36,298 nucleotides of DNA from an uncultured Ilumatobacter sp. (lineage in GTDB: Bacteria; Actinomycetota; Acidimicrobiia; Acidimicrobiales; Ilumatobacteraceae). Both the position numbers and the translations under genes were made by a program. Of this stretch, positions 6,404 through 17,295 are shown one piece after another. Below the pieces are notes generated by a model, which was given only the letters and a program-made list of their open reading frames with translations, was not told the DNA's origin and made no database searches. The stretch is from NCBI GenBank assembly GCA_937919625.1, contig CALFRK010000177.1, positions 1 through 36,298 on the forward strand, written 5' to 3'. Every line of letters starts with the position of its first letter. The first letter of the stretch is position 1.

Positions 6404-7204
6404 TCAGGTTATCGACGGAACCGCTCGGGCGAGCATGTCGCCAAGGTGCGCCACGTTGTCGCGCATTACCTGCAGCACGGCCTGCATGGTGACGGGGGCG
6501 TGCCCATCGGCACCGGCGTCGTAGTCGGTGACCAGCGCAACGGTGGCGTAGGCGAGTCCGGCCTCGGCAGCCAGCACGGCCTCTGGGTAGCCGGTCATGT
6601 TGACCACCGACCAGCCCATCTGTCGGAACCAAGCGCTCTCTGCCCTGGTCGAGAATCGTGGACCGTTGATGATCACGATCGTGCCGCCGTCGTGGACGGT
6701 GACACCGCTGTCGCGGGCAGCCGACACGAGTACCCGGCGGAGGTCGGTGTCGTAGGGGTCGGCGAACGATTGATGGTGGACCGAACCTTCGCGACCGGGG
6801 GTGCCCTCGGGTGCGCCGACGTCATGAAACGTGTCGGGCCGCCCCCAGGTACGGTCGACGAGCTGGTCGACGACGACGAAGTCGCCAGGGTGCAGCTCGG
6901 GCTGCAACGACCCGCACGAGCACGGCCCGATCAGGGCCCGTACGCCGAGTGATGCCATCGCCCACACGTTGGCGCGGTAGGGCACTCGGTGGGCGGCGAA
7001 CTCGTGGCGGCGTCCGTGACGAGGCAGAAAGGCGACTCGTCGCCCTGCCAGGTCGCCGACGGTGATCGGTGCAGCCGTCGCTCCGTACGGCGTGTGAAGC
7101 TGGATTTCGGTGGCGTCGGAAAGCAGTTCGTAGAAGCCGGACCCGCCCATGATCCCGATCTCGGCGCCAAGCTCGGATGCTCGGTCGCTGAGCGGGATCA
7201 GCAT
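6404..7204 (-). CDS. mtnP: S-methyl-5'-thioadenosine phosphorylase (MTAP family)
   Basis: A 266-residue nucleoside phosphorylase that cleaves methylthioadenosine (or a related purine nucleoside) to base and sugar 1-phosphate, linking polyamine/SAM by-products to purine salvage. Family motifs: IGIMGGSGFY at the N-terminus, TPYGATAAPITVG, FLPRHGRRHEFAAHRVPYRANVWA (phosphate site), GPRFSTRAES and VVNMTGYPEAVLA, then ALVTDYDAG (base-binding Asp). NMTGYPE in place of the mammalian NMTTVPE is usual in actinobacterial members, so specificity for MTA versus other 6-aminopurine or 6-oxopurine nucleosides cannot be fixed from sequence. The ATG at 7204 lies one nt after the TAA of the fmdB-like gene, so the two are surely cotranscribed. 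Confidence 0.9.
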   Translation of the reverse strand: MLIPLSDRASELGAEIGIMGGSGFYELLSDATEIQLHTPYGATAAPITVGDLAGRRVAFLPRHGRRHEFAAHRVPYRANVWAMASLGVRALIGPCSCGSLQPELHPGDFVVVDQLVDRTWGRPDTFHDVGAPEGTPGREGSVHHQSFADPYDTDLRRVLVSAARDSGVTVHDGGTIVIINGPRFSTRAESAWFRQMGWSVVNMTGYPEAVLAAEAGLAYATVALVTDYDAGADGHAPVTMQAVLQVMRDNVAHLGDMLARAVPSIT

Positions 7205-7205
7205 G

Positions 7206-7733
7206 TTAGTCGCTTGACGAGGAGTTGTTGGTCGACGGCTTGGCGGTGGTCGATGAACCACCCGATGAGCCTGATGAACCACCCGACGAGCCTGATGAAC
7301 CACGCGATGAGCCTGATGAACCACCCGATGAGCCTGATGAACCACCCGATGAGCCTGATGAACCACGCGACGAGCCTGATGAACCACCCGACGAGTCGCT
7401 CGAGCTCGAACCGCCAGACGAGTCGCTCGAGCTCGAACTGCCCGAGGATTCGCCGGCGCTGCTTGATGAGCTCGACGAATCTTTCGACGAGCCCGAGCCA
7501 CTCGAGTCGGACGAACCTGATGCGTTGGAGGCCGACTTCTTCGCCGAACGGCTGTCGGTCTTGTAGAACCCATCGCCCTTGAAGGTGACGCCGACCGGCA
7601 AGAAGACCTTCTTGACTGGCAGCGTGTCGCCGCTGTCGGGATGGACGGCCTCGGTCAGGGTGTCGTCGTTGAACGACTGCTGGACCTCGATCGTCTCGCC
7701 GGTATCGATGAACTTGTACACGTACGTTGGCAT
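7206..7733 (-). CDS. FmdB/Ruc-family small protein without cysteines, Ser/Gly repeat tail
   Basis: A 175-residue protein. The first 60 residues match the FmdB family (MPTYVYKF, then FxxDTLTEAVHPDSGDTLPVKKV and GVTFKGDGFYKTDSR). FmdB proteins normally carry a CxxC...CxxC zinc ribbon; here there is not one cysteine in the whole protein, and the first CxxC position reads IDTG. The family includes mycobacterial Ruc (Rv0991c), reported as a chaperone switched on by oxidation of those cysteines and sited beside galU and moeA, as here. Residues about 68-175 are a low-complexity Ser/Gly tail, partly heptads of SSGGSSG/SSGSSRG encoded by 21-bp repeats. It is divergent from galU and heads an operon with mtnP. 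A cysteine-independent chaperone role is inference. Confidence 0.85.
   Translation of the reverse strand: MPTYVYKFIDTGETIEVQQSFNDDTLTEAVHPDSGDTLPVKKVFLPVGVTFKGDGFYKTDSRSAKKSASNASGSSDSSGSGSSKDSSSSSSSAGESSGSSSSSDSSGGSSSSDSSGGSSGSSRGSSGSSGGSSGSSGGSSGSSRGSSGSSGGSSGSSGGSSTTAKPSTNNSSSSD
7252..7395. repeat. 21-bp minisatellite, about 7 units, inside the fmdB-like gene
   Basis: Seven head-to-tail units of gatgaaccacccgatgagcct start at 7252, 7273, 7294, 7315, 7336, 7357 and 7378 (the last cut short). Units differ only at two positions (c/g giving Gly or Arg, and t/c silent). The unit is a multiple of three, so copy-number changes keep the frame and change only the tail length. Because of the repeats the plus strand is also open in two frames; those are not genes. 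Confidence 0.95.
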
Positions 7734-7852: not shown

Positions 7853-8722
7853 GTGCAGGTCCGAACCGCTGTTATTCCCGCCGCCGGTATGGGAACCAGG
7901 TTTCTCCCGGCGACCAAGGCGGTTCCGAAGGAGTTGATGCCGATCGGTGACACGCCGGCGATTCAGATCATCATCGACGAGGCGCTCGGCGCCGGTGTCG
8001 AACACATTGTGATCGTGAACAGCCGTAACAAGCCGGCGATCGAGCGCTACTTCGAGCGCGACGACGAACTCGTCGAAATGATTCGCGCCAAGGGCGACGA
8101 TCGGCTAGCCGACCGACTTGCTGGGATCGGTCGTGATTGGCGCGTCACGTTCGCCTATCAGGACAAGCCACGCGGTCTCGGACACGCCGTCGGATGTGCA
8201 CGCCAGGCGGTTGGCAACGAGCCGTTCGCCGTGATGCTTCCCGACGAGCTGCTGGGCGATTGCTCGCTGCTGGATCAGATGAATGTCGTGTCCGCTGACA
8301 CGGGTGGTGGGGTGGTCGGCGTCACTCAGGTGCCCCGCGAGCTGGTCAGTTCGTATGGCGTCTTGGCCCCATCGGGGCCAGTCAGCGACGACGGGGTGAT
8401 CGCGGTCGAAGATCTGGTCGAAAAGCCGCCCGCTGACGAGGCGCCGAGCAACTACATCCTGATTGGCCGGTACGTGCTGACCCCAGATGTGTTCGACGAA
8501 ATCGAACGACTGACGCCCGGCCGCGGGGGAGAGCTGCAGCTGACCGATGCCTTGCGGGCACAGGTGGCCCGCGGCCCGTTCTCGGCGGTGGTGTCGCGCA
8601 CCGACCGATATGACACCGGAAACCCGGTCGGGTTCCTCGACGCGGCGATCGCTTTCGCGCTTCGCAACCCTGAGATGTCTGATGGCACCAGGGCAGTGCT
8701 GGCCAACCGCGTCTCTGGTTGA
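7853..8722 (+). CDS. galU: UTP-glucose-1-phosphate uridylyltransferase GalU
   Basis: A 289-residue cytoplasmic nucleotidyltransferase making UDP-glucose from UTP and glucose 1-phosphate. The nucleotide-binding signature PAAGMGTRFLPATKAVPKE is at the N-terminus; further family motifs are PIGDTPAIQIIIDEALGAG, YQDKPRGLGHAV, MLPDELL (metal Asp), VEDLVEKPP, IGRYVLTP and DRYDTGNPVGFLDA. Length is normal. The start is GTG at 7853. It opens the galU - moeA/glp - glpR-like run and ends 5 nt before the convergent glycolipid-binding gene. Confidence 0.97.
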   Translation: MQVRTAVIPAAGMGTRFLPATKAVPKELMPIGDTPAIQIIIDEALGAGVEHIVIVNSRNKPAIERYFERDDELVEMIRAKGDDRLADRLAGIGRDWRVTFAYQDKPRGLGHAVGCARQAVGNEPFAVMLPDELLGDCSLLDQMNVVSADTGGGVVGVTQVPRELVSSYGVLAPSGPVSDDGVIAVEDLVEKPPADEAPSNYILIGRYVLTPDVFDEIERLTPGRGGELQLTDALRAQVARGPFSAVVSRTDRYDTGNPVGFLDAAIAFALRNPEMSDGTRAVLANRVSG

Positions 8723-8727
8723 CTCGC

Positions 8728-9303
8728 CTACAGAACTCGGCGATAGCGGCCGTCGAGATCGAGTACTACACCGAACTCATCGACATCGAACTCGACCGTC
8801 GCGTCGCCAGCTGTCACACACCAGCGTCGTTCGCTGAGACGTTCGTAGACCTGGCCAGCAGGGACGACGCCCAGCGTCTCGACATCGATCTCGAGCACGG
8901 ACAACTCGACGGCATCACCGATCTGCAGCGGCACTCGCCGAATCGGGAGCGTGTGGGTAAAGGGTGTGCAACCCAGCGCTACGTCGAACGAGCCGTCGAG
9001 GTCGGCGCGGTGGGCGCCATTGATTTCGCCCCAACGACCGCGGCCGTCGGTGCCCAGCCAGAGGTCGGCCTCGGCCTGATCGCGGAACAGGATGAACTGG
9101 CGCACCTGCCACATAGGCGAGAGCCGGATCACGTATTGAACGTTCTCGCGCTCGACGGATCCAGTGGCGGTCCAGGCCTCGTTCTCCCAGATCAACGAGA
9201 GCGCTTCGCTGTGCTGGCCGTTCCATGTGGTCCAGCGCGCTTCGTAGCCGTCGGCCGGGAATCCCCGCAACATCGCTGATGGCGCTGGCTGGTCGTCGTG
9301 CAC
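8728..9303 (-). CDS. putative glycolipid-binding (DUF1089-like) protein
   Basis: A protein of about 191 residues resembling the Glycolipid_bind family (formerly DUF1089), a beta-barrel related to the lipoprotein-localisation fold. Supporting features are the opening ARWTTWNGQHSEALSLIW, the motif YVIRLSPMWQVRQFILF, DLWLGTDGRGRWGEING and CTPFTHTLPIRRVPL near mid-protein, where the family has its conserved DLG.TP.TNTLPIRRL-like segment. There is no signal peptide or membrane segment. The start is uncertain: GTG at 9303 or ATG at 9273; neither has a clear Shine-Dalgarno or -10 box. It is inserted antisense between galU and moeA and may be a late arrival in this otherwise conserved order. Confidence 0.7.
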   Translation of the reverse strand: MHDDQPAPSAMLRGFPADGYEARWTTWNGQHSEALSLIWENEAWTATGSVERENVQYVIRLSPMWQVRQFILFRDQAEADLWLGTDGRGRWGEINGAHRADLDGSFDVALGCTPFTHTLPIRRVPLQIGDAVELSVLEIDVETLGVVPAGQVYERLSERRWCVTAGDATVEFDVDEFGVVLDLDGRYRRVL

Positions 9304-9336
9304 CGGTCCAGTCTGCCGCCCGGTTGCTGCGACCGG

Positions 9337-9342
9337 TACCGT
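9337..9342 (+). promoter_or_regulatory. -10 box TACCGT, leaderless promoter of moeA
   Basis: TACCGT ends 7 nt before the GTG at 9350, supporting that start over the GTG at 9341, which overlaps the box. Confidence 0.5.
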
Positions 9343-9349
9343 GCGATGT

Positions 9350-10552
9350 GTGACCCCGCTCGAAGATGCCCAGACGTTCGTGATCGGCAGCTGCCCGCCC
9401 CTGCTGCCGGTTGAAACTTTGCTCGACGAGGTCGTCGGCCTGGTGTTGGCGACCGATGTGGTGGCCACCGAACAAGTTCCGCCGTTCGACAATTCCGCCG
9501 TCGACGGGTATGCCGTGATTGCCGCCGACACACAAACCGTGCCGGTCGAGCTGCCCGTCGTCGCCGAGGTTGCGGCTGGGGCCGCCACCGATCATGTGAT
9601 GCGGCCTGGCGAGGCGATCCGGATCATGACCGGCGCACCGTTGCCCGATGGCTGTGATGCGGTAGTGATGGTAGAGCAGACCGAGCGTTTGCCTGGCGGC
9701 CGGGTTCGGATCAATGCGGGTGTCGAGACCGGTGCTGCTGTTCGCAACGCGGGCGACGACGTGCAGCCCGGCGACCTGCTGTTCCGAGCGGGCACCGTGG
9801 TGACCCCGGTGATCGCTGGCGTCTTGGCCAGTATCAACGCCCGCATCCTCAACGCTCACCGTCAGATTCGTGTCGCCGTGCTGTCGACCGGCGACGAGTT
9901 GGTCGAAGACGACCGCCCGCTGCTACGCGGCCAAATCCGTGAGAGCAACCGCCGAACACTGGCCGGACTGCTGCGCGAGACAGGCTGCGACGTGGTCGAC
10001 ATGGGTACCGTGCGCGACGACGAGGCGGCGCTCGAGCTGGTTCTGCGCCGGGCAGCCGACCGTTGCGATGCGATCGTCACAAGTGGCGGCGTCAGCATGG
10101 GCGACTACGACGTCGTCAAGGCGGTGCTGGGTCGGATCGCCGACATGACCTGGATGCAGATCGCGATCAAGCCGGCCAAGCCGTTTGCGTTCGGCACGAT
10201 CGACGGTGTCCCGATCTTCGGGCTGCCCGGCAATCCGGTCAGTTCGATCGTGAGTTTCGAAATGCTCGCCCGCCCGGCGTTGCGGCGCATGATGGGTCAC
10301 CACAAGTTGTCGCGCCCGAGTCATGTGGCCCTCACCGACGACGACCTGACCCGTCGCCCAGACGGCAAGGTGCACCTGTTGAGGGTGCTCGCCAGTTTCG
10401 AGAACGATGGCCGTTGTCACGTGCGCTCGGCTCGCTCCCAGGGCAGCCATCAGCTGGCCGCCACGTCGCTTGCCAACGCGATCGCGATCGTGCCCGACGG
10501 CGACGGCCTACCGGCCGGTTCAGAGGTTGCCGTCGTGATGATGCAGGGCTGA
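9350..10552 (+). CDS. moeA: MoeA molybdopterin molybdotransferase, candidate Glp
   Basis: A 400-residue gephyrin/MoeA-type protein, which inserts molybdate into adenylated molybdopterin. Domain order is standard: N-terminal domain with VPPFDNSAVDGYAV, beta domain (PGEAIRIMTGAPLPDGCDAVVMVE), the central MPT-binding domain with VLSTGDEL and TSGGVSMGDYDVVK, then GLPGNPVSSIVSFEMLARP and the C-terminal domain IV. In Corynebacteriales and Streptomyces the MoeA copy next to galU is Glp, which works in cell division with membrane receptor GlpR. Position two genes after galU, and a GlpR-like gene at 13306, make this protein a Glp candidate. The next gene is moaA, so a cofactor role is also likely; it may do both. 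Confidence 0.93.
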   Translation: MTPLEDAQTFVIGSCPPLLPVETLLDEVVGLVLATDVVATEQVPPFDNSAVDGYAVIAADTQTVPVELPVVAEVAAGAATDHVMRPGEAIRIMTGAPLPDGCDAVVMVEQTERLPGGRVRINAGVETGAAVRNAGDDVQPGDLLFRAGTVVTPVIAGVLASINARILNAHRQIRVAVLSTGDELVEDDRPLLRGQIRESNRRTLAGLLRETGCDVVDMGTVRDDEAALELVLRRAADRCDAIVTSGGVSMGDYDVVKAVLGRIADMTWMQIAIKPAKPFAFGTIDGVPIFGLPGNPVSSIVSFEMLARPALRRMMGHHKLSRPSHVALTDDDLTRRPDGKVHLLRVLASFENDGRCHVRSARSQGSHQLAATSLANAIAIVPDGDGLPAGSEVAVVMMQG

Positions 10553-10583
10553 TAGCCGCTCCCGCAGGTGCCTTATTGTGCCG

Positions 10584-10589
10584 TAGGAT
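10584..10589 (+). promoter_or_regulatory. -10 box TAGGAT, leaderless promoter of moaA
   Basis: TAGGAT ends 6 nt before the ATG at 10596; the 43-nt gap after moeA holds no Shine-Dalgarno sequence for moaA. Confidence 0.5.
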
Positions 10590-10595
10590 GCAACG

Positions 10596-11594
10596 ATGTC
10601 GCATCCGGGGGCCCGTGATCTGATCGACCCGTTCGATCGCGTCGTGCGCGACCTGCGGATCTCCGTCACCGATCGCTGCAATTTTCGTTGCACTTACTGC
10701 ATGCCCGAGGAAGGGATGCAGTGGATGCCTCGCTCTGAGATCCTTACGTTCGAGGAGATCGAACGGTTGGCGCGGATCTGCGTCGAGCGGTACGGCTTCG
10801 ACGGCATTCGTCTCACAGGCGGAGAGCCCACGATCAGGGCTCACATCACGCGGCTGGTGTCGAAGCTGGCGGCGCTCGGCGTCGACTTGGCGATGACCAC
10901 CAACGGCGCCACACTGCGCAACCTCGCCCACGATCTGCGTGATGCCGGGTTGAGGCGCATCAACATCAGTCTCGACACACTCGATCGCGACAAATTCGCC
11001 CGGATGACCCGCCGCGATGAGTTGGCAAACGTGCTCGAGGGCATCGCCGTCGCCAAGCAGGCGGGGTTCGAACGGATCAAGATCAATGCCGTTGTCGAGC
11101 GCGGCACGAACGACGACGAGATCATCGACCTCGCCCGCTTCGGTCGCAACCAAGGCGTCGAAGTGCGCTTCATCGAGTTCATGCCGCTCGACGCCAGCGA
11201 CGAATGGCAGCGCGCCAAGGTGGTTGGGCAAGACGAGATCGTCGCCGCCATCAACGCCGAGTGGCCAATCGCGGTCGTGCCGGCCACCGGTGCCGCCCCG
11301 GCCAACCTGTGGCAGTATCTCGACGGTCACGGCACGGTCGGCGTGATTCCCACGGTGACCAAGCCATTCTGCGGCGACTGCGATCGGGTGCGGCTCACCG
11401 CCGATGGCCAATTCCGCACCTGTCTGTTCGCCACCGACGAGTTCGACATGCGAGACGCTCTGCGCAACGGCGAGACCGACGATCAGATCGCCGGACGGAT
11501 CGAGGCAGCCGTCGGTACAAAGTGGGCCGGTCACAAGATCAATCAGATCAACTTCATCCGCCCCAAGCGCTCGATGAGCCAGATCGGCGGCTGA
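10596..11594 (+). CDS. moaA: GTP 3',8-cyclase MoaA
   Basis: A 332-residue radical SAM enzyme carrying out the first step of molybdopterin synthesis (GTP to 3',8-cyclo-7,8-dihydro-GTP). The SAM cluster motif CNFRCTYC supplies Cys28, Cys32 and Cys35. GGEP appears as LTGGEPTIR. The C-terminal second 4Fe-4S site is seen as FCGDCDRVRLTADGQFRTCLF (CxxC plus a later Cys). The protein ends in Gly-Gly (MSQIGG), the C-terminal tail needed for activity in MoaA. Length is normal. It works with moaC, 1 kb downstream. No moaD, moaE or moaB/mogA is present in the window. Confidence 0.97.
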   Translation: MSHPGARDLIDPFDRVVRDLRISVTDRCNFRCTYCMPEEGMQWMPRSEILTFEEIERLARICVERYGFDGIRLTGGEPTIRAHITRLVSKLAALGVDLAMTTNGATLRNLAHDLRDAGLRRINISLDTLDRDKFARMTRRDELANVLEGIAVAKQAGFERIKINAVVERGTNDDEIIDLARFGRNQGVEVRFIEFMPLDASDEWQRAKVVGQDEIVAAINAEWPIAVVPATGAAPANLWQYLDGHGTVGVIPTVTKPFCGDCDRVRLTADGQFRTCLFATDEFDMRDALRNGETDDQIAGRIEAAVGTKWAGHKINQINFIRPKRSMSQIGG

Positions 11595-11595
11595 T

Positions 11596-12573
11596 TTGCG
11601 GCGCTGGGCTGTCCCCGCCGCTGTCGCCGTAGCGCTCGTTGTCGGCGGTGTCGCTACGGCAGCGTTGACCGCGCTGACCGAGCCGGCCACAGTCGGCACA
11701 CACGCCGAACGGCTTCGCTCGCCCCAGCCATCGGTCGGGGGCTGCGAGGTTTTTCCCGCTGACAATCCTTGGAACGTGGTGGTCGCCGGCGCCCCGTTGC
11801 GATCCGACTCGGCAGCGATCATCGCCGCGATCCAGTCGAACGGTGGCACCAGCCTCCATCCGGATTTTGGTGAGAACCCAAATTACGGTATCCCCTTCGT
11901 CGTCGTCGCCGCATCACAGCTGAGGGTGCCCGTCGTCTACGACCCGTACGGCGATGAGAGCGACCCCGGCCCGTTTCCAATTCCGCTCGAAGCGCCAGTC
12001 GAGGGTGGAGCGGGTTCGTCGGGCGACCGTCACGTACTCGTGGTTCAGTCGGGTTCGTGTGAGCTGTTCGAGTTGTTCGATGCCGAGCGCAGCGGCCAGG
12101 GCTGGAGTGCGGCGAGCGGCGCAAGGTTCGATCTGTCGTCGAACGTACTGCGACCACTTGGTTGGACGAGCGCCGATGCCGCCGGGCTGCCGATTCTCCC
12201 GGGTCTCGTTCGCTTCGACGAGGTCGCTGCCGGCGAGATCCGCCACGCCATCAGAGTGACGTTCTCGCGGACGCAGCGCGGCTACGTCTTACCCGCCACT
12301 CACTTCGCATCGTCGAGCACCGATCCGACACTGCCGGCGATGGGAATCCGTCTGAGGTTGAAGGCGTCGTTCAACGTCGCCTCGCTTACCGGTCAGGCTC
12401 GCACGATCGCCGTCGCCATGCAGCGTTATGGGTTGATCGTCGCCGATAACGGATCTAACTGGTTTTTTCAGGGGGCTCCGAGTCTCGGTTGGGATGACGA
12501 CGACCTGAATCAGCTGAGGTCGATCTCGGGTTTCGAGTTCGAAGTGGTCGACACCGGCCCGGTTGTGCACTGA
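11596..12573 (+). CDS. secreted protein of unknown function between moaA and moaC
   Basis: A 325-residue protein with a signal peptide-like N-terminus (MRRWAVPAAVAVALVVGGVATAALTAL), so probably exported. The start is TTG at 11596, one nt after the moaA stop; no other suitable start precedes the signal sequence. The mature part has distinctive segments: CEVFPADNPWN, NYGIPFVVV, GPFPIPLEAPVEGG, GDRHVLVVQSGSCELFELFDAE, GWTSADAAGLPILPGLVRFDEV, HAIRVTFSRTQRGYVLPATHFASS, PAMGIRLRLKASF and ADNGSNWFFQGAP. I have seen such segments in uncharacterised exported proteins but know no function. Two Cys (CEVF, CELF) could form a disulfide. There are no molybdenum-binding motifs I recognise; its place inside a cofactor operon is unexplained. 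Confidence 0.75.
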   Translation: MRRWAVPAAVAVALVVGGVATAALTALTEPATVGTHAERLRSPQPSVGGCEVFPADNPWNVVVAGAPLRSDSAAIIAAIQSNGGTSLHPDFGENPNYGIPFVVVAASQLRVPVVYDPYGDESDPGPFPIPLEAPVEGGAGSSGDRHVLVVQSGSCELFELFDAERSGQGWSAASGARFDLSSNVLRPLGWTSADAAGLPILPGLVRFDEVAAGEIRHAIRVTFSRTQRGYVLPATHFASSSTDPTLPAMGIRLRLKASFNVASLTGQARTIAVAMQRYGLIVADNGSNWFFQGAPSLGWDDDDLNQLRSISGFEFEVVDTGPVVH

Positions 12574-12640
12574 CACTCCTCGCCCCCGAGTCACGGTGAG
12601 CTGCCGTGCGGGCCGTCTGGGCACTAACGTCGCTGTCATC

Positions 12641-13126
12641 ATGAGCGATCTCGAGTTCACCCATCTCGATCCGCTCGGCCATGCCCGCATGGTCGATGTC
12701 ACCTTGAAAGAGCCGACCCATCGACGGGCGGTTGCACGCTGCAAGGTATTCATGAAGCCCGAGACCACGGCGGCGATCGCCAACCGTGAGGTCAACAAGG
12801 GCGATGTGCTCGCCGTCGCTCGGGTTGCTGGTATCCAGGCCGCCAAGCGCACTTCCGACATGATTCCGCTCTGTCATCCATTGCTGGTCGGAGCGGTGTC
12901 TGTCAACTTCGACATCGGTGACGACCATATTGCCGTCGAGGCATTCGTTGACACGGTCGAGCGGACCGGTGTCGAGATGGAGGCGTTGCACGCCTGTTCG
13001 ATTGCGGCGTTGACGATCTATGACATGTGCAAGTCGGCCGATCGTGGCATGACGATCGGCGAGTTGGCGTTGTGGGAGAAGACGGGCGGACGTTCGGGCA
13101 CATACCGCCGCCCCGAAGAGTCATGA
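12641..13126 (+). CDS. moaC: cyclic pyranopterin monophosphate synthase MoaC
   Basis: A 161-residue MoaC, which turns the MoaA product into cyclic pyranopterin monophosphate. Signatures: FTHLDPLGHARMVDVTLKEPT, RVAGIQAAKRTSDMIPLCHPL (the conserved Lys and SDMIPLCHPL active-site region), and TGVEMEALHACSIAALTIYDMCKS with the catalytic Lys in a later AdrGM segment. Length matches the family. The open frame begins at 12563 but MoaC homology starts at the ATG at 12641; a TAACGT hexamer at 12625-12630 could give a transcript with only a few leader bases. Confidence 0.96.
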   Translation: MSDLEFTHLDPLGHARMVDVTLKEPTHRRAVARCKVFMKPETTAAIANREVNKGDVLAVARVAGIQAAKRTSDMIPLCHPLLVGAVSVNFDIGDDHIAVEAFVDTVERTGVEMEALHACSIAALTIYDMCKSADRGMTIGELALWEKTGGRSGTYRRPEES

Positions 13127-13191
13127 ACCGAACCTTGTGCACATTTTCGACACTCATCGTGGCCGACCTGTGACGAATGCCACGCTCAATG

Positions 13192-13221
13192 TTGCCGACT
13201 GTGTTACGAATGTCGTAGAAT
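13192..13221 (+). promoter_or_regulatory. candidate promoter of the GlpR-like gene
   Basis: TTGCCG at 13192-13197 and TAGAAT at 13216-13221 are separated by 18 bp. Transcription would begin near 13228, leaving a leader of about 78 nt, unusual here since most nearby genes look leaderless. Confidence 0.45.
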
Positions 13222-13239
13222 CGTAATGTAATGTCGTCC

Positions 13240-13266
13240 CATCGACCGCTTGGTCGAGGGTCGATG
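13240..13266 (+). other. mutually exclusive hairpins in the GlpR-like leader
   Basis: catcgacc (13240-13247) can pair with ggtcgatg (13259-13266), an 8-bp stem. Its inner part tcgacc (13242-13247) can instead pair with ggtcga (13252-13257) as a 6-bp stem with a 4-nt loop. Both lie in the presumed 5' leader, about 27 nt before the Shine-Dalgarno sequence. No ligand or regulator is suggested. Confidence 0.4.
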
Positions 13267-13305
13267 TCGACTCGTGACCTAGCCACCGAACGAAGGATCT
13301 ACAAC

Positions 13306-13953
13306 ATGGGCGAACTCGTTTTGCTGGTCGTGGCAGCTGCTTGGGCAGCCGTGCTGATCCCACCGCTGCTGCGCTCCCGCATCGAGAACCGACCCAATTC
13401 GTCGGTCACCGACTTCCGTCGTCAACTCAACAAGCTGCAAGGTGGCGTGCCGCATCGTGCCGGTAGTTCGATGCGCGGAATGGCTCGCCCGCTGGCCCAG
13501 TCGCCGTTGCAGCGCCCTGCTGCCGGTGGTCGCCCGGGTCTGCAGCCGGCTCAGATGCGTCGCAGCGGTTCGGGTCGTGTGCATGGTGGCCAGCCGACCA
13601 GCCATGTCGCCGCTGGTACCCAGGTTCGTGAATCTGCCCAGCGCGGCCGCACGCATGGCGATCCCACGGGTGGCCAGCCCCGGCTCCAACAGCAAAACCA
13701 TCACCGTCAGGCGCACATTGCCCACCACAATGTTTCTGCCGCCGACCAGCTCCGTAGGCGCCGCACGAATGTGCTCTTCATGCTCGTCGTGACCGCTGGC
13801 GCGACCCTGTTTCTGGCGGCTACGACACAAGAACCAGCGTTGTTGTATCTGTTCGCTCTCGCCTTCCTAGCGTTGTGCGGTTACGCCTATCTTCTGTCGC
13901 AGGTTCGCCTGCGCGAAACCAGTTCGTGGGGCAACGACTGGATCAACAGCTAA
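13306..13953 (+). CDS. GlpR/SepX-like membrane protein (Glp receptor candidate)
   Basis: A 215-residue protein with one membrane helix at the very N-terminus ([24 protein letters not shown]), a long polar, basic, Gln/Gly/His-rich linker (about 40-150), and two closely spaced C-terminal helices ([19 protein letters not shown] and [20 protein letters not shown]) followed by a basic QVRLRE tail. This architecture, the opening [hydrophobic][14 protein letters not shown], and the FRRQLNKLQ segment match actinobacterial GlpR (SepX in Streptomyces), the membrane receptor of the gephyrin-like division protein Glp. Its place downstream of galU and moeA fits that family; rimJ, usually between, is replaced by moaA, the secreted gene and moaC. 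AAGGA at 13293-13297 fixes the ATG at 13306. Orthology is inferred, not proven. Confidence 0.7.
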
Positions 13954-14187: not shown

Positions 14188-14430
14188 ATGTCTGAAGTGA
14201 CTGCCACCGACGCCGCCCGTCGGTTCGCCGACCTGCTCGATTCCGTCGAGCACGACGGCCAGCGTTACACGATCATCCGGCACGGCAAAGCGGTCGCTCA
14301 GATCGAACCCGTCTCGCGCGGTCGAGGCGTCGACACCAAATCGTTGCTGCGCCGACACCGGCCAGACTCACGCTGGGCCGACGATCTCGGCGAGGTTCGG
14401 AACCTCTTACAGATCGAGCACCGCACGTGA
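14188..14430 (+). CDS. vapB: Phd/YefM-type antitoxin (VapB)
   Basis: An 80-residue antitoxin. The N-terminal half is the Phd/YefM DNA-binding fold ([41 protein letters not shown] compressed into the usual 45 residues), which binds the operator upstream. The C-terminal 35 residues, rich in Arg and Asp ([19 protein letters not shown]), would wrap the toxin. The last codon and stop overlap the toxin start by 4 nt (GTGA), the standard coupled arrangement. It lies 114 bp after the tRNA-Ala gene. Confidence 0.9.
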
Positions 14431-14831
14431 GCCTTCTGCTGCTCGACACCACGTTCCTGATCGACGCCGAACGCGGTGCGAGCGCACTCGACATGGTCAT
14501 CGACGACGACGACGATGTCGCCATCGCGGCGATCACGGTCGCCGAGCTCAGCGTCGGAGTCCAACTCGCGTCGGCGCGTCAGAAGGGGCGCCGGCAGGCC
14601 TACGTTGACGACGTCATCGCATCCATACCGATCCTGTCCTACGACCACATCGTTGCGATCGAACACGCCGACCTGCTGGTGTCGGTGCGGCGTTCGGGGC
14701 AGCCGCGAGGCGCCCACGACCTGATCATCGCTGCCACGGCGCGTGCCTTCGGACGAACCGTCGTGAGCGCAGATCGACACGCATTCGACGATCTCCCCGG
14801 CATCATGGCGATCGATCACCGCCTGGCATGA
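14427..14831 (+). CDS. vapC: PIN-domain toxin VapC
   Basis: A 134-residue PIN-domain ribonuclease of the VapC toxin class; such toxins cut tRNA, rRNA or mRNA when freed from the antitoxin. The acidic catalytic residues are all in place: Asp7 (LLLLDTTFLID), Glu40 (ITVAELSVG), Asp98 (GAHDLIIAA) and Asp116 (SADRHAF). It therefore looks active. The start is GTG inside the antitoxin stop. The target cannot be told from sequence. Confidence 0.93.
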   Translation: MSLLLLDTTFLIDAERGASALDMVIDDDDDVAIAAITVAELSVGVQLASARQKGRRQAYVDDVIASIPILSYDHIVAIEHADLLVSVRRSGQPRGAHDLIIAATARAFGRTVVSADRHAFDDLPGIMAIDHRLA

Positions 14832-15121
14832 GTCGAACGACCGTCGATTCCGGCAAGCGATTGCTACCGCGATTGCTACCGCGACGTGAAGTAGCCGATC
14901 AATCGAGGGTGCTGACCAGGACATTTGTCGGCGACCTCAGCGGCGTGCGGAGTCCCCCTCAGCTCCACTCTTAGGTTTTTGCCACATCCCAAGGATCCGA
15001 ACCATCAAAGGTTTGGGTCCCCCTTTTTGTTTTGGTCCCTTGTTTGCCGCGCTCGGTCGCCCGCGGCCGCATCACGAGCTCGAGACGGGTCCGGCCGTTC
15101 AGATCGATCGCCTGACATTGA
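14832..15121. other. gene-free stretch after vapC containing the second tRNA-end repeat
   Basis: No credible gene. It contains a tandem pair of the 12-mer gattgctaccgc (14859-14870, 14871-14882), the second att-like repeat (14955-14969), then a T-rich part (ttaggttttt near 14971-14980) and another at about 15020-15035. The T-rich bases just after the repeat could be the original downstream flank or terminator of the tRNA gene, displaced by the vapBC insertion; this is inference. Confidence 0.5.
14955..14969 (+). repeat. att-like direct repeat, right copy
   Basis: An exact 15-bp copy of the tRNA-Ala 3' end and its first flanking bases (left copy 14061-14075). The interval between copies is 894 bp and holds only vapBC. 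No integrase gene is present between or near them. Confidence 0.65.
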
Positions 15122-15127
15122 TACGGT
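15122..15127 (+). promoter_or_regulatory. -10 box TACGGT, leaderless promoter of the 720-residue protein gene
   Basis: TACGGT ends 5 nt before the ATG at 15133, with no Shine-Dalgarno sequence. It supports 15133 as the start rather than the open frame reaching back to 15013. Confidence 0.45.
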
Positions 15128-15132
15128 GCATC

Positions 15133-17295
15133 ATGTCCGATCTCATAGAACAATTCGAAAGGGTTGAGGAACGAGTCGCGGTCTCGGTCGCCGCCGCGCA
15201 GGACACCGCATCCTCGCCAGAGTCGCGCCACGCAGCTCTCGACGAGGCCACAGCCGCAACCCAAGAGCTGCGGCAGCTCAAAGCGAAGATCGACGCTGCT
15301 GGTGATCCCGTTCTTCAGTCTCGAGCAAAAGACCTTCTCGAAGACGCCAACGAGGCGATCGCCAGGACCAAGATTCTGGTACCCCCAAAGCCCGTCGGCG
15401 GAGGAGCAGACGACGGGCGGCTGCAATCGATGGGCGACCTCTGGAGCAACCTTCCTGGGCGCCCCCACGACCGCTCGGGGTTCGAAGCCCTCGAGGCCCG
15501 GCGATGTGAACTCTGCAAGTTTCTCCGTACGAGGCCCGACCGGAGTGAGCTCCAAAAAGCACTCGACTGGGACGCGGAACGAAAGCAACTAATCGTGCAG
15601 GTGATTCTCGCCGAGGATCAGATTCTCGAGGACTGGGCTCGTCGACAGGTGCCCTACTCCGACGCCGATCATGACGCGCTCGCCAACGCGTACGAAGGGC
15701 TCGGCCAGGTACGAGACGAGCTCGACAAGATCGCCGAATCCGACGCCGAGGCGGCGATCTTGCGCGACAACCTGAACTTTCTCGCCGAGACCCACCAGGC
15801 ATTGCGCGAGTGCATCGCTGACGTCGATGGCTCGAAAATCCAGAAGTCCGCCAAGAGCACCAACAAGGGTGTCGGCGGCGCTACCAAAGTCTTGAAGAAT
15901 ATGCAGGAGCGTGGACTCACGAACAAGCTCGGCGAGCTTCAGAAGATAGCGCAAAAAGGGAGCAGCTCCGGAAACAAGCTCCTGCAGAACTTCGCCAAGA
16001 ACGCTAAGGCGGCTGAAGTGGGTAGCTCGAAGGTGGGGGGCCAGGCGATCAGAGCTGGAGGCGCAGGGAAGTTTGCCGAGGCGATCGGAGCCGGCGGCAT
16101 GGGCCTCATGCGGATGCTTCACGAGGTGACCGAGCGGCAGCTGATTGAGATCGAGAACCGTCTGAGCGGCAACGCCGGCATCGCGTTGGCGGCTCGCAAC
16201 AACCTTGACGGAGCCCGCGCAGAAGTTCGGGCGAGACGGATCGGCGAGGCGAAGAAGCAGATCGACGCCGAACTCGCAGCCAATCGCCTGCCGCCGTTTG
16301 AGATTCACAAACTGTCCGACTCGGACACCGGCAACTACCTAGACAAGAAACTCTACGAGCGCGCTGGGGGCGACTCGCTCGAACGTGTTCATCGCGACAG
16401 CGGACGCAAGAGCAGCTTCGCGCCATCATCGGCCTACAGCGGGTTCTACCTCGACAATGGCGACCTTTGGGACAGCGCCACCGATGCGGCGCTCCTCGAG
16501 TGGTGCAAGAAACATTGCAACAGCCACTCCGGGACAAAGGACAACCGCACGGGCTTCAATTTCACCGACCCCAAGTTCGTTCTGGCTTTGGTCGCCGTCC
16601 TCCTGATCGCGATTGCCGGCGTCTTCGTCATAGCCAACGGAGACTCGACGAGCAACAATGCCAGCGAGGAGCCGACGCAGCAAGATGCGGTCGACGATCA
16701 GGGTCAGCCGGACACAGAGCAACCCTCCGAGGATCTGACCGGCCCATCCGAAACCGCTCCAGCCGAGGATCTGACCGGCCCATCCGAAACCGCTCCAGCC
16801 GAGGATCTGACCGGCCCATCCGAAACCGCTCCAGCCGAGGATCTTAAAGAAAACACCGACGAGGGGCCCGAGATCGCACCCGGGATCTACACATTCGCAG
16901 GCCAGGTCAACAACGTCTGCGGGGGCAGCTACGAGGTCTTCCTTCGCCTCACCCGATTCCTGAACGGTGAAATTACCCTCGACCAGCTTCTCGTCGCCGG
17001 AGGGGGCGCGTTTCAAACCTCGTCAGGGACGGCATCGGGTGCGGTAGCGATTGCAACGATGCAAGGGCCGAGTCTGTTCGAGGTGTGGCTACTCGTCCAG
17101 GTGTTAGACACGTTCGTGATCTACAACGTCTACGGCCCCACGGCCTCTGCGCTCCCCACCGAGGGTGCTTCGGCGAGCGACTACGCCGGCGTCGCCAACG
17201 AGTCGGATCTCGCCGGCGCCGTCGGAGCGGGAGACGGATCGTGTGCGTCGGAGGTTACCGACGTCACCGTCGACTACTCGGCTTTCCCTGGGTAG
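15133..17295 (+). CDS. large single-pass membrane protein, function unknown
   Basis: A 720-residue protein I do not recognise. Residues 1 to about 480 are polar and helical, with several likely coiled-coil stretches (FERVEERVAVSVAAAQ, ATAATQELRQLKAKID, GLGQVRDELDKIAESDAEAA, VTERQLIEIENRLSG) and a Lys/Gly/Ser-rich middle (KSAKSTNKGVGGATKVLKN, QKGSSSGNKLLQNFAKNAK). One membrane helix follows at about 482-503 (FVLALVAVLLIAIAGVFVIA). Then come an acidic Pro/Thr/Glu tether with three exact 12-residue repeats and a C-terminal domain of about 110 residues with two Cys (NNVCGGS, GDGSCASE) that could form a disulfide outside the cell. Likely topology is N-in, C-out. It stands alone between the tRNA-linked vapBC island and the thiolase, and may be accessory DNA. 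Confidence 0.75.
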   Translation: MSDLIEQFERVEERVAVSVAAAQDTASSPESRHAALDEATAATQELRQLKAKIDAAGDPVLQSRAKDLLEDANEAIARTKILVPPKPVGGGADDGRLQSMGDLWSNLPGRPHDRSGFEALEARRCELCKFLRTRPDRSELQKALDWDAERKQLIVQVILAEDQILEDWARRQVPYSDADHDALANAYEGLGQVRDELDKIAESDAEAAILRDNLNFLAETHQALRECIADVDGSKIQKSAKSTNKGVGGATKVLKNMQERGLTNKLGELQKIAQKGSSSGNKLLQNFAKNAKAAEVGSSKVGGQAIRAGGAGKFAEAIGAGGMGLMRMLHEVTERQLIEIENRLSGNAGIALAARNNLDGARAEVRARRIGEAKKQIDAELAANRLPPFEIHKLSDSDTGNYLDKKLYERAGGDSLERVHRDSGRKSSFAPSSAYSGFYLDNGDLWDSATDAALLEWCKKHCNSHSGTKDNRTGFNFTDPKFVLALVAVLLIAIAGVFVIANGDSTSNNASEEPTQQDAVDDQGQPDTEQPSEDLTGPSETAPAEDLTGPSETAPAEDLTGPSETAPAEDLKENTDEGPEIAPGIYTFAGQVNNVCGGSYEVFLRLTRFLNGEITLDQLLVAGGGAFQTSSGTASGAVAIATMQGPSLFEVWLLVQVLDTFVIYNVYGPTASALPTEGASASDYAGVANESDLAGAVGAGDGSCASEVTDVTVDYSAFPG
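16729..16836. repeat. 36-bp minisatellite, three identical units, in the 720-residue protein gene
   Basis: Three identical 36-bp units (16729-16764, 16765-16800, 16801-16836) encode EDLTGPSETAPA three times, just outside the membrane helix. Perfect identity at the DNA level indicates recent duplication; the unit keeps the frame. Confidence 0.97.

Follow-up and report, generated by a model that had tools for sequence, protein, structure and literature searches.

What does a molybdopterin molybdotransferase (MoeA) do when its gene stands close to that of a GlpR/SepX-type membrane protein, in the order known from an actinobacterial division locus? The question is raised by a stretch of 36,298 nucleotides (the window, positions 1 to 36,298 of contig CALFRK010000177.1, assembly GCA_937919625.1) from an uncultured Ilumatobacter sp. 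of the class Acidimicrobiia, referred to below as the class. A first-pass annotation read the galU, moeA and GlpR/SepX-like genes of this stretch as a Glp-GlpR division locus merged with molybdopterin synthesis genes, and as a setting in which a cofactor enzyme was recruited to division. The explanation that probably applies is an old shared neighbourhood, in which GlpR/SepX is itself old and probably division-associated, MoeA is the enzyme and Glp was recruited later. It draws on family membership, synteny, copy number, catalytic residues, tree position and the occurrence of GlpR in genomes without detectable MoeA. These observations suggest a direction of evolution in which GlpR was present before any MoeA was recruited, with recruitment occurring at least twice. 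Loci, genomes and families are given L, G and f codes, the window genome being G000. The genes of the locus are the following.

7853-8722, forward strand: GalU-type UTP-glucose-1-phosphate uridylyltransferase, 289 amino acids (PF00483, E 1.7e-30; TIGR01099, E 3.3e-81, below cut-off)
8728-9240, reverse strand: putative glycolipid-binding protein (PF06475, E 1.5e-29)
9341 or 9350 (alternative starts) to 10552, forward strand: MoeA, molybdopterin molybdotransferase (PF03453, PF00994 and PF03454, all three above cut-off)
10596-11594, forward strand: MoaA, GTP 3',8-cyclase (TIGR02666, E 5.2e-113, above cut-off)
11596-12573, forward strand: presumed secreted protein with an N-terminal hydrophobic segment (no family match)
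12563-13126, start probably at 12641, forward strand: MoaC, cyclic pyranopterin monophosphate synthase (TIGR00581, E 4.2e-59, above cut-off)
13306-13953, forward strand: GlpR/SepX-family membrane protein, 215 amino acids (NF050099, E 1.9e-8)

On one strand the order is galU, moeA, moaA, the presumed secreted gene, moaC and the glpR/SepX-family gene. The first-pass annotation had given this arrangement correctly, including the embedding of moeA among moa genes near glpR, and had left out the opposite-strand gene at 8728-9240 between galU and moeA. Its further statement that the moa genes stand where rimJ normally is finds no support in a comparison with stretches from outside the class (which were selected and are not a random sample). 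A MoeA above the Glp cut-off occurs in eight of these loci, L061-L068, all of which also carry rimJ and GlpR; L065-L068 read galU-glp-rimJ-glpR, and L061-L064 carry moaC and mogA between glp and rimJ (galU was not seen in L064). Since moaC lies between glp and rimJ in the latter four, it is part of the old layout and its place in the window is consistent with inheritance, and the idea of moaC as a replacement of rimJ is rejected by the presence of both genes in the same loci. The order galU-moeA-moaC, mostly with glpR next, recurs outside the class in f24, f29, f30, f32, f36 and f54, and stretches with MoeA and without galU or glpR include L085, L086, L088, L090 and L093-L100, among others. 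At the galU locus moaA was seen only in the window's class, and is missing from some of its families (L053, L058, L060, L199). The arrangement is true and informative, yet it is an old layout rather than a merger, and the window would carry the Acidimicrobiia form of an old actinobacterial neighbourhood, (plsY)-galU-moeA-moaC-(mogA)-(rimJ)-glpR-(translin-like). No description of a galU-moeA-moaC-glpR layout in Acidimicrobiia was found in the open-access literature searched. A translin-family gene (PF01997, barely above cut-off) lies directly 3' of glpR in many loci, for example at 5152-5787 in L210 and 5973-6599 in L205.

The membrane protein had been credited with GlpR/SepX architecture, and three NCBIfam SepX/GlpR models recognise it, each with a score under its cut-off (NF050099 as listed; NF045516, E 1.1e-4; NF050100, E 0.011). 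On these matches it is a GlpR/SepX homologue. Twenty-five homologues that begin at the corresponding start codon align with it from that point. Residues W13, R152 and R153 are invariant in an alignment with 23 members of the class, and 25 closer relatives show no variation at S32, S33, F37, R39, Q40 and L41. In the structural model (mean predicted local distance difference test score, pLDDT, of 62, rising to about 88 over the final two helices and low in the linker) a helix at 2-26 is followed by a short helix at 35-46 over the conserved motif, a disordered basic linker with a computed isoelectric point (pI) of 12.0, helices at 145-174 and 177-209 and a short tail; hydropathy is consistent with transmembrane helices at 2-26, 145-174 and 177-209. 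A profile built from class members (A1, threshold E 1e-3) includes four GlpRs of MoeA-less genomes (L035, L037, L039, L054), all first found by NF050099. In a control it gave 117 matches in 117 loci, one per locus, among 11,594 open reading frames (ORFs), its own training rows included; on reversed ORFs nothing reached E 1e-3, and two matches appeared at E 0.01. It recovers the rimJ-adjacent GlpR in all eight Glp-bearing loci, and a search with it found no second GlpR in the window genome.

GlpR also occurs where MoeA does not. Among 119 class genomes, A1 detected GlpR in 108 (19 of them weakly) and MoeA_N was present in 79. The 40 genomes without MoeA_N comprise 12 with a clear GlpR (at least 32 bits), 19 with a weak match and nine with none; the 12 are spread over f4 (eight), f12 (two), f5 and f13 (one each). 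When six of these 12 GlpRs were scanned individually, all matched curated SepX/GlpR models (E 4.5e-10 for L037, 1.5e-8 for L207, 3.2e-8 for L054, 1.1e-6 for L214, 1.9e-6 for L209 and 8.8e-4 for L210). The 12 genomes have one MoCF match apiece, located in open frames of 419-542 amino acids, and MoaA was found in none of 18 genomes, namely these 12, G028, G204 and four of f9. Some of their loci partly resemble the full locus with pieces removed: plsY-galU-moaC-glpR in L054, plsY-moaC-glpR-translin in L209 and plsY-galU-glpR-translin in L210. In the f4 loci L035, L039 and L207, neighbours of the plsY, galU, moaC or translin-like kinds were not seen. L054 and L209 (G009 and G181) still have moaC next to glpR, although neither MoaA nor MoeA was detected in those genomes.

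The weak matches belong to f9, a family with genomes of about 1 Mb, where 19 of 26 genomes match at 19-27 bits. Two of its loci encode GlpR-like proteins of 120-124 amino acids, almost without a linker, between plsY and a translin-like gene (L205, 6600-6962; L206, 6205-6579). Scanned individually, these two proteins matched no NCBIfam model. Dismissal of the f9 matches as noise was rejected, as L205 and L206 show the same position as in L210; they are probably GlpR, and the conclusion is independent of them. Because GlpR is found in genomes without detectable MoeA, it probably has MoeA-independent work and can probably function with no need for MoeA. These genomes differ from the published pattern, in which glpr and glp co-occur when present, the larger database covering 244 taxa (PMC10522489).

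The MoeA of the window has the marks of an enzyme. MoaA and MoaC together make cyclic pyranopterin monophosphate, and MoeA inserts molybdate. In the window genome one MoeA_N match was found, which makes this the sole MoeA found; the copy count proposed in the first-pass annotation accordingly comes to one. The other cofactor genes are one for MoaA, one for MoaE and one for a 182-amino-acid MoCF protein of MogA/MoaB size. Another MoCF protein (C60, 414 amino acids) was considered as a second MoeA and rejected, being CinA (NF001813, 381 bits, above cut-off). A single MoeA above cut-off is the rule in the class (75 of 79 MoeA-bearing genomes); G030, G202, G210 and G054 have two or three, with two in tandem in G030 and G054. 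The window protein keeps 12 of the 13 catalytic positions of E. coli MoeA (K275 is Q), with D228, D259 and K279 intact. By comparison, C. glutamicum Glp and its four relatives L065-L068 keep 9-10 of the 13 and have in common a changed D228, H at 279, the FtsZ pocket and the inserted loop. Their pocket residues read VLLMYLF or nearly so in all five, against HDASCHM in the window, and the loop insertion found in all five is absent from the window MoeA, as are the FtsZ-binding loop and pocket generally (M361-L370 and others). L061-L064, although above the Glp cut-off, likewise lack this loop and pocket. The hinge-2 stretch of the window protein, AHRQIRVAV, contains no proline and the hinge-1 stretch some, the limits of both hinges being inexact.

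Placement in MoeA/Glp trees, also proposed in the first-pass annotation, set the protein apart from Glp. In two maximum-likelihood trees it falls inside a clade of the class (100/96, 100/97) and outside the Glp clade, whose 13 rows hold all Glp with support of 99/98 in both. For the first tree six class rows were dropped in thinning (L101, L105, L046, L042, L047, L162); for the second, fourteen rows were dropped, mostly long-branch paralogues and E. coli, and 12 of 19 newly read MoeA were included. A length filter removed 4 of 155 MoeA matches, the catalytic-residue table covered 8 of the 80 named loci, and the label C. glutamicum-type was assigned by tree position. D228 and D259 are intact in all 21 rows labelled class A, in all 46 labelled A or B and in 10 of 10 further rows; among the A or B rows, the 9 kb of L178 show neither moaC nor glpR, and in a few others galU or glpR is missing at a stretch boundary. 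The closest named relatives of the window protein are mostly labelled Ilumatobacteraceae, Acidimicrobiaceae or Acidimicrobiia. One of the loci, L177, comes from a record titled Bifidobacterium breve (metagenome-assembled genome TE-11nov19-73), but its MoeA and locus are of Acidimicrobiia type, so that title is apparently mistaken.

Among structures in the PDB, the window sequence matches E. coli MoeA at 260 bits and Glp (8bve) at 152 bits. Its fold model (pLDDT 89) is nearest to Cnx1E (Z 38.2, root-mean-square deviation 2.2), followed by E. coli MoeA 1g8l (Z 36.9, 4.7) and Glp 8bve (Z 36.4, 5.9). The training of AlphaFold2 predates 8bve. Because of this, and because 1g8l and 8bve tie on Z, the fold comparison weighs little and the model was set aside as proof of an enzyme-like closed form. 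Judged by sequence, the window MoeA is a cofactor enzyme and not a Glp; its residues, single copy and moa context would make it an active one, and it bears no sign of recruitment to division. The claim that the window pair is a division pair is not supported, given the missing Glp signatures and the persistence of GlpR where MoeA is gone.

Outside the class, family f29 offers what appears to be a second case of a MoeA that decayed beside glpR. In G065 the locus reads galU-moeA-moaC-mogA-glpR and MoeA keeps 13/13 catalytic positions. In G079 it reads galU-moeA-glpR, MoeA keeps 8/13 and no other MoeA was found at E 1e-20; in G093 it reads moeA-glpR, MoeA keeps 6/13 and a distantly related intact MoeA (12/13) lies elsewhere, beside moaA and moaC. 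The decayed genes are these.

L223, 2008-3234: decayed MoeA directly before glpR in f29, apparent second origin of a Glp-like protein
L193, 2708-3952: decayed MoeA directly before glpR in f29, apparent second origin of a Glp-like protein

Both frames are full length and retain three MoeA Pfam domains. The decayed MoeA of G079 and G093 are sisters (100/96) and are jointly sister to that of G065 (100/100), and a common origin with C. glutamicum-type Glp is rejected by the approximately unbiased test (p-AU 3e-52, for a grouping chosen after the first tree). To judge from these residues and trees, glpR-adjacent MoeA has lost its active site at least twice independently outside the class, in C. glutamicum-type Glp and in f29. 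The decayed pair scores higher on the Glp than on the MoeA model (322 vs 275 and 317 vs 267 bits), and their intact sister L092 slightly favours the MoeA model (426 vs 421 bits). A preference for the Glp profile was nevertheless rejected as a mark of decay, since intact MoeA also show it in four loci of f24, f30 and f32 (for instance 436 vs 335 bits in L075). In neither decayed lineage does moaC lie between moeA and glpR; moaC loss and MoeA decay thus coincide in both lineages, a pattern that is no more than suggestive. The proposal that such a locus shows the setting of an enzyme's recruitment is reasonable, and strengthened by the parallel decay in f29, although the window MoeA itself gives no sign of having been recruited.

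Several observations weigh against an old neighbourhood of separately working genes. Within the class, 64 of the 79 MoeA-bearing genomes carry a same-strand GlpR no more than 7 kb downstream of the MoeA_N match, and the persistence of this linkage while other neighbours vary could mean a working partnership; in the remainder GlpR is elsewhere on the same contig (2), on another contig (11) or undetected (2). The two last are G014, with 6.6 kb available downstream, and G212, where a contig end cuts the locus. Among the 80 named MoeA loci, downstream sequence of 5 kb or more is available for 49; GlpR is present in all of these but L133, L158 and L178 (46 of 49). Because many genomes are drafts, single gene absences may be gaps. 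MoeA was retained beside glpR after decay of its active site in two lineages, which hints at a second role, and L063 and L064 come from genomes (G117, G138) with a single MoeA match that lies above the NCBIfam Glp cut-off with D228 and D259 intact. This single copy contrasts with the published statement of two or more MoeA copies in bacteria with Glp, the same source leaving open second functions of other MoeA (PMC11733289).

Such points would be accommodated if the ancestral MoeA moonlighted, a single protein making the cofactor and binding GlpR at the septum in the manner of gephyrin and its receptors, with Glp as the remnant once catalysis moves to another copy or the cofactor is lost. This is unlikely on present evidence, yet it is the alternative that survives best. 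It is favoured by recurrent glpR linkage of intact MoeA in several families beyond the class, by the lone MoeA of G117 and G138, by the f29 series from intact to decayed and by the rejection of a single origin for the decayed forms. It would have to explain the 12 genomes that retain GlpR without detectable MoeA, and a window MoeA that lacks the loop required for binding of FtsZ and GlpR in C. glutamicum (PMC10522489); decay that follows acquisition of a second copy could also reflect a new second role and not an old one. In its fullest form, to be held only tentatively, the glpR-linked MoeA would have been bifunctional since early in the phylum, a bacterial equivalent of gephyrin that also docked on GlpR at the septum. 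This state would persist in several lineages, that of the window among them, while C. glutamicum-type Glp and the f29 proteins would independently have lost the active site and kept the division role, GlpR being older and able to work alone.

It is very improbable that the two window proteins already form a Corynebacteriales-type Glp-GlpR division system. The galU, moeA, glpR order is identical and the NCBIfam Glp model NF045515 does score 362 bits on the window MoeA, but this is below its cut-off of 475 and below the 372.6 bits of the E. coli-type MoeA model (itself short of its cut-off of 440). Intact catalytic residues, the HDASCHM pocket, the proline-free hinge 2 and the position outside the Glp clade all speak against it, as does the failure to find in the genome another MoeA for cofactor supply. 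Of the two outcomes named in the first-pass annotation as grounds for giving up its reading, a membrane protein without profile similarity to GlpR/SepX and another galU-linked glp-glpR pair in the genome, neither occurred: the profiles do match, and neither a second MoeA_N nor a second GlpR was found. That the membrane protein is an unrelated three-helix protein of similar outline is hardly credible: its score of 34.6 against a curated cut-off of 150 bits and identities to class members down to 19% leave room for the idea, but three curated models match it, A1 finds GlpR in every Glp locus and nothing at E 1e-3 in reversed ORFs, and the protein has an equivalent locus position in several other families.

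Under the old-neighbourhood explanation, the two halves of the locus would function separately in the window organism. The molybdenum cofactor would be made by MoeA with the adjoining MoaA and MoaC, together with the MogA/MoaB-sized protein and MoaE encoded elsewhere. A septal or division role is the most likely one for the window GlpR, which would be anchored through its N-terminal helix and C-terminal hairpin and act, independently of MoeA, as a septal scaffold with FtsZ and SepF, probably gathering division proteins through its conserved 32-41 motif and basic linker. The FtsZ of the genome ends in DDDDDDFDVPSFLK, and SepF (PF04472, E 4.5e-23) is encoded near ftsZ on the same contig. A meeting of the basic linker with the acidic FtsZ tail is a guess. 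The partner of SepX in Streptomyces venezuelae is DynB (PMC8748795). Two Dynamin_N matches in the window genome are short (about 35 residues each) and weak, one passing its cut-off only jointly with its neighbours (33.7 bits), which makes the presence of DynB, and an action of GlpR with it, doubtful. Glp would have arisen later, where a glpR-adjacent MoeA was freed from catalysis.

Other genes of the window complete the picture of the locus. GalU is its upstream landmark: among the 71 named relatives whose upstream sequence reaches 2 kb or more, 68 have galU ahead of moeA. Relatives of the PF06475 gene occupy the same position in seven other loci of the family. The presumed secreted protein has no Pfam or NCBIfam match up to E 1; 62 named loci extend at least 2.5 kb downstream past MoeA, and 11 of them carry a relative. 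Immediately 3' of glpR lies a gene for a PIN-domain VapC-like protein (14427-14831, forward strand), and at 15013-17295 (forward) one for a protein of 760 amino acids that contains a membrane segment and EDLTGPSETAPA repeats in tandem and matched no clear family. The reverse strand at 7206-7733 encodes an FmdB-like zinc-ribbon protein, matched weakly by PF09723, whose long tail is repetitive and rich in Ser and Gly; this gene overlaps the extended frame of a phosphorylase gene at 6404-7573.

The nearest known system is that of C. glutamicum (PMC10522489), which as described there shares with the window the succession galU, MoeA homologue and GlpR, and a GlpR in which a disordered linker joins one N-terminal helix to a pair of helices. 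There the Glp loop is required for binding of both FtsZ and GlpR, and the glp clade is mostly confined to Actinomycetes. The window differs in a MoeA that is single, catalytically intact and without that loop, in a basic linker where the first intrinsically disordered region (IDR1) of C. glutamicum GlpR is acidic (pI 4.05), in the lack of a second such region (IDR2), and in having moaA and moaC at the locus; rimJ was not found in the window. SepX of S. venezuelae, as far as PMC8748795 describes it, belongs to the same three-helix family with a disordered part between helices, whereas the window protein is almost without a C-terminal tail. Canonical MoeA, Cnx1E and the gephyrin E domain resemble the window MoeA in sequence, fold and catalytic residues; it differs from them in adjoining glpR and lacking a MogA fusion, and receptor binding is not among its known features.

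Three things are added to the published picture, part of which may already stand in published supplementary tables: genomes that have GlpR but no detectable MoeA, a sole intact MoeA with GlpR as its neighbour, and a second lineage in which a glpR-linked MoeA decayed independently. Through such living intermediates the sequence of events by which cell division recruited a metabolic enzyme can be put to the test, and the question worth testing is whether a second role, for example GlpR binding, is already present in the intact MoeA.

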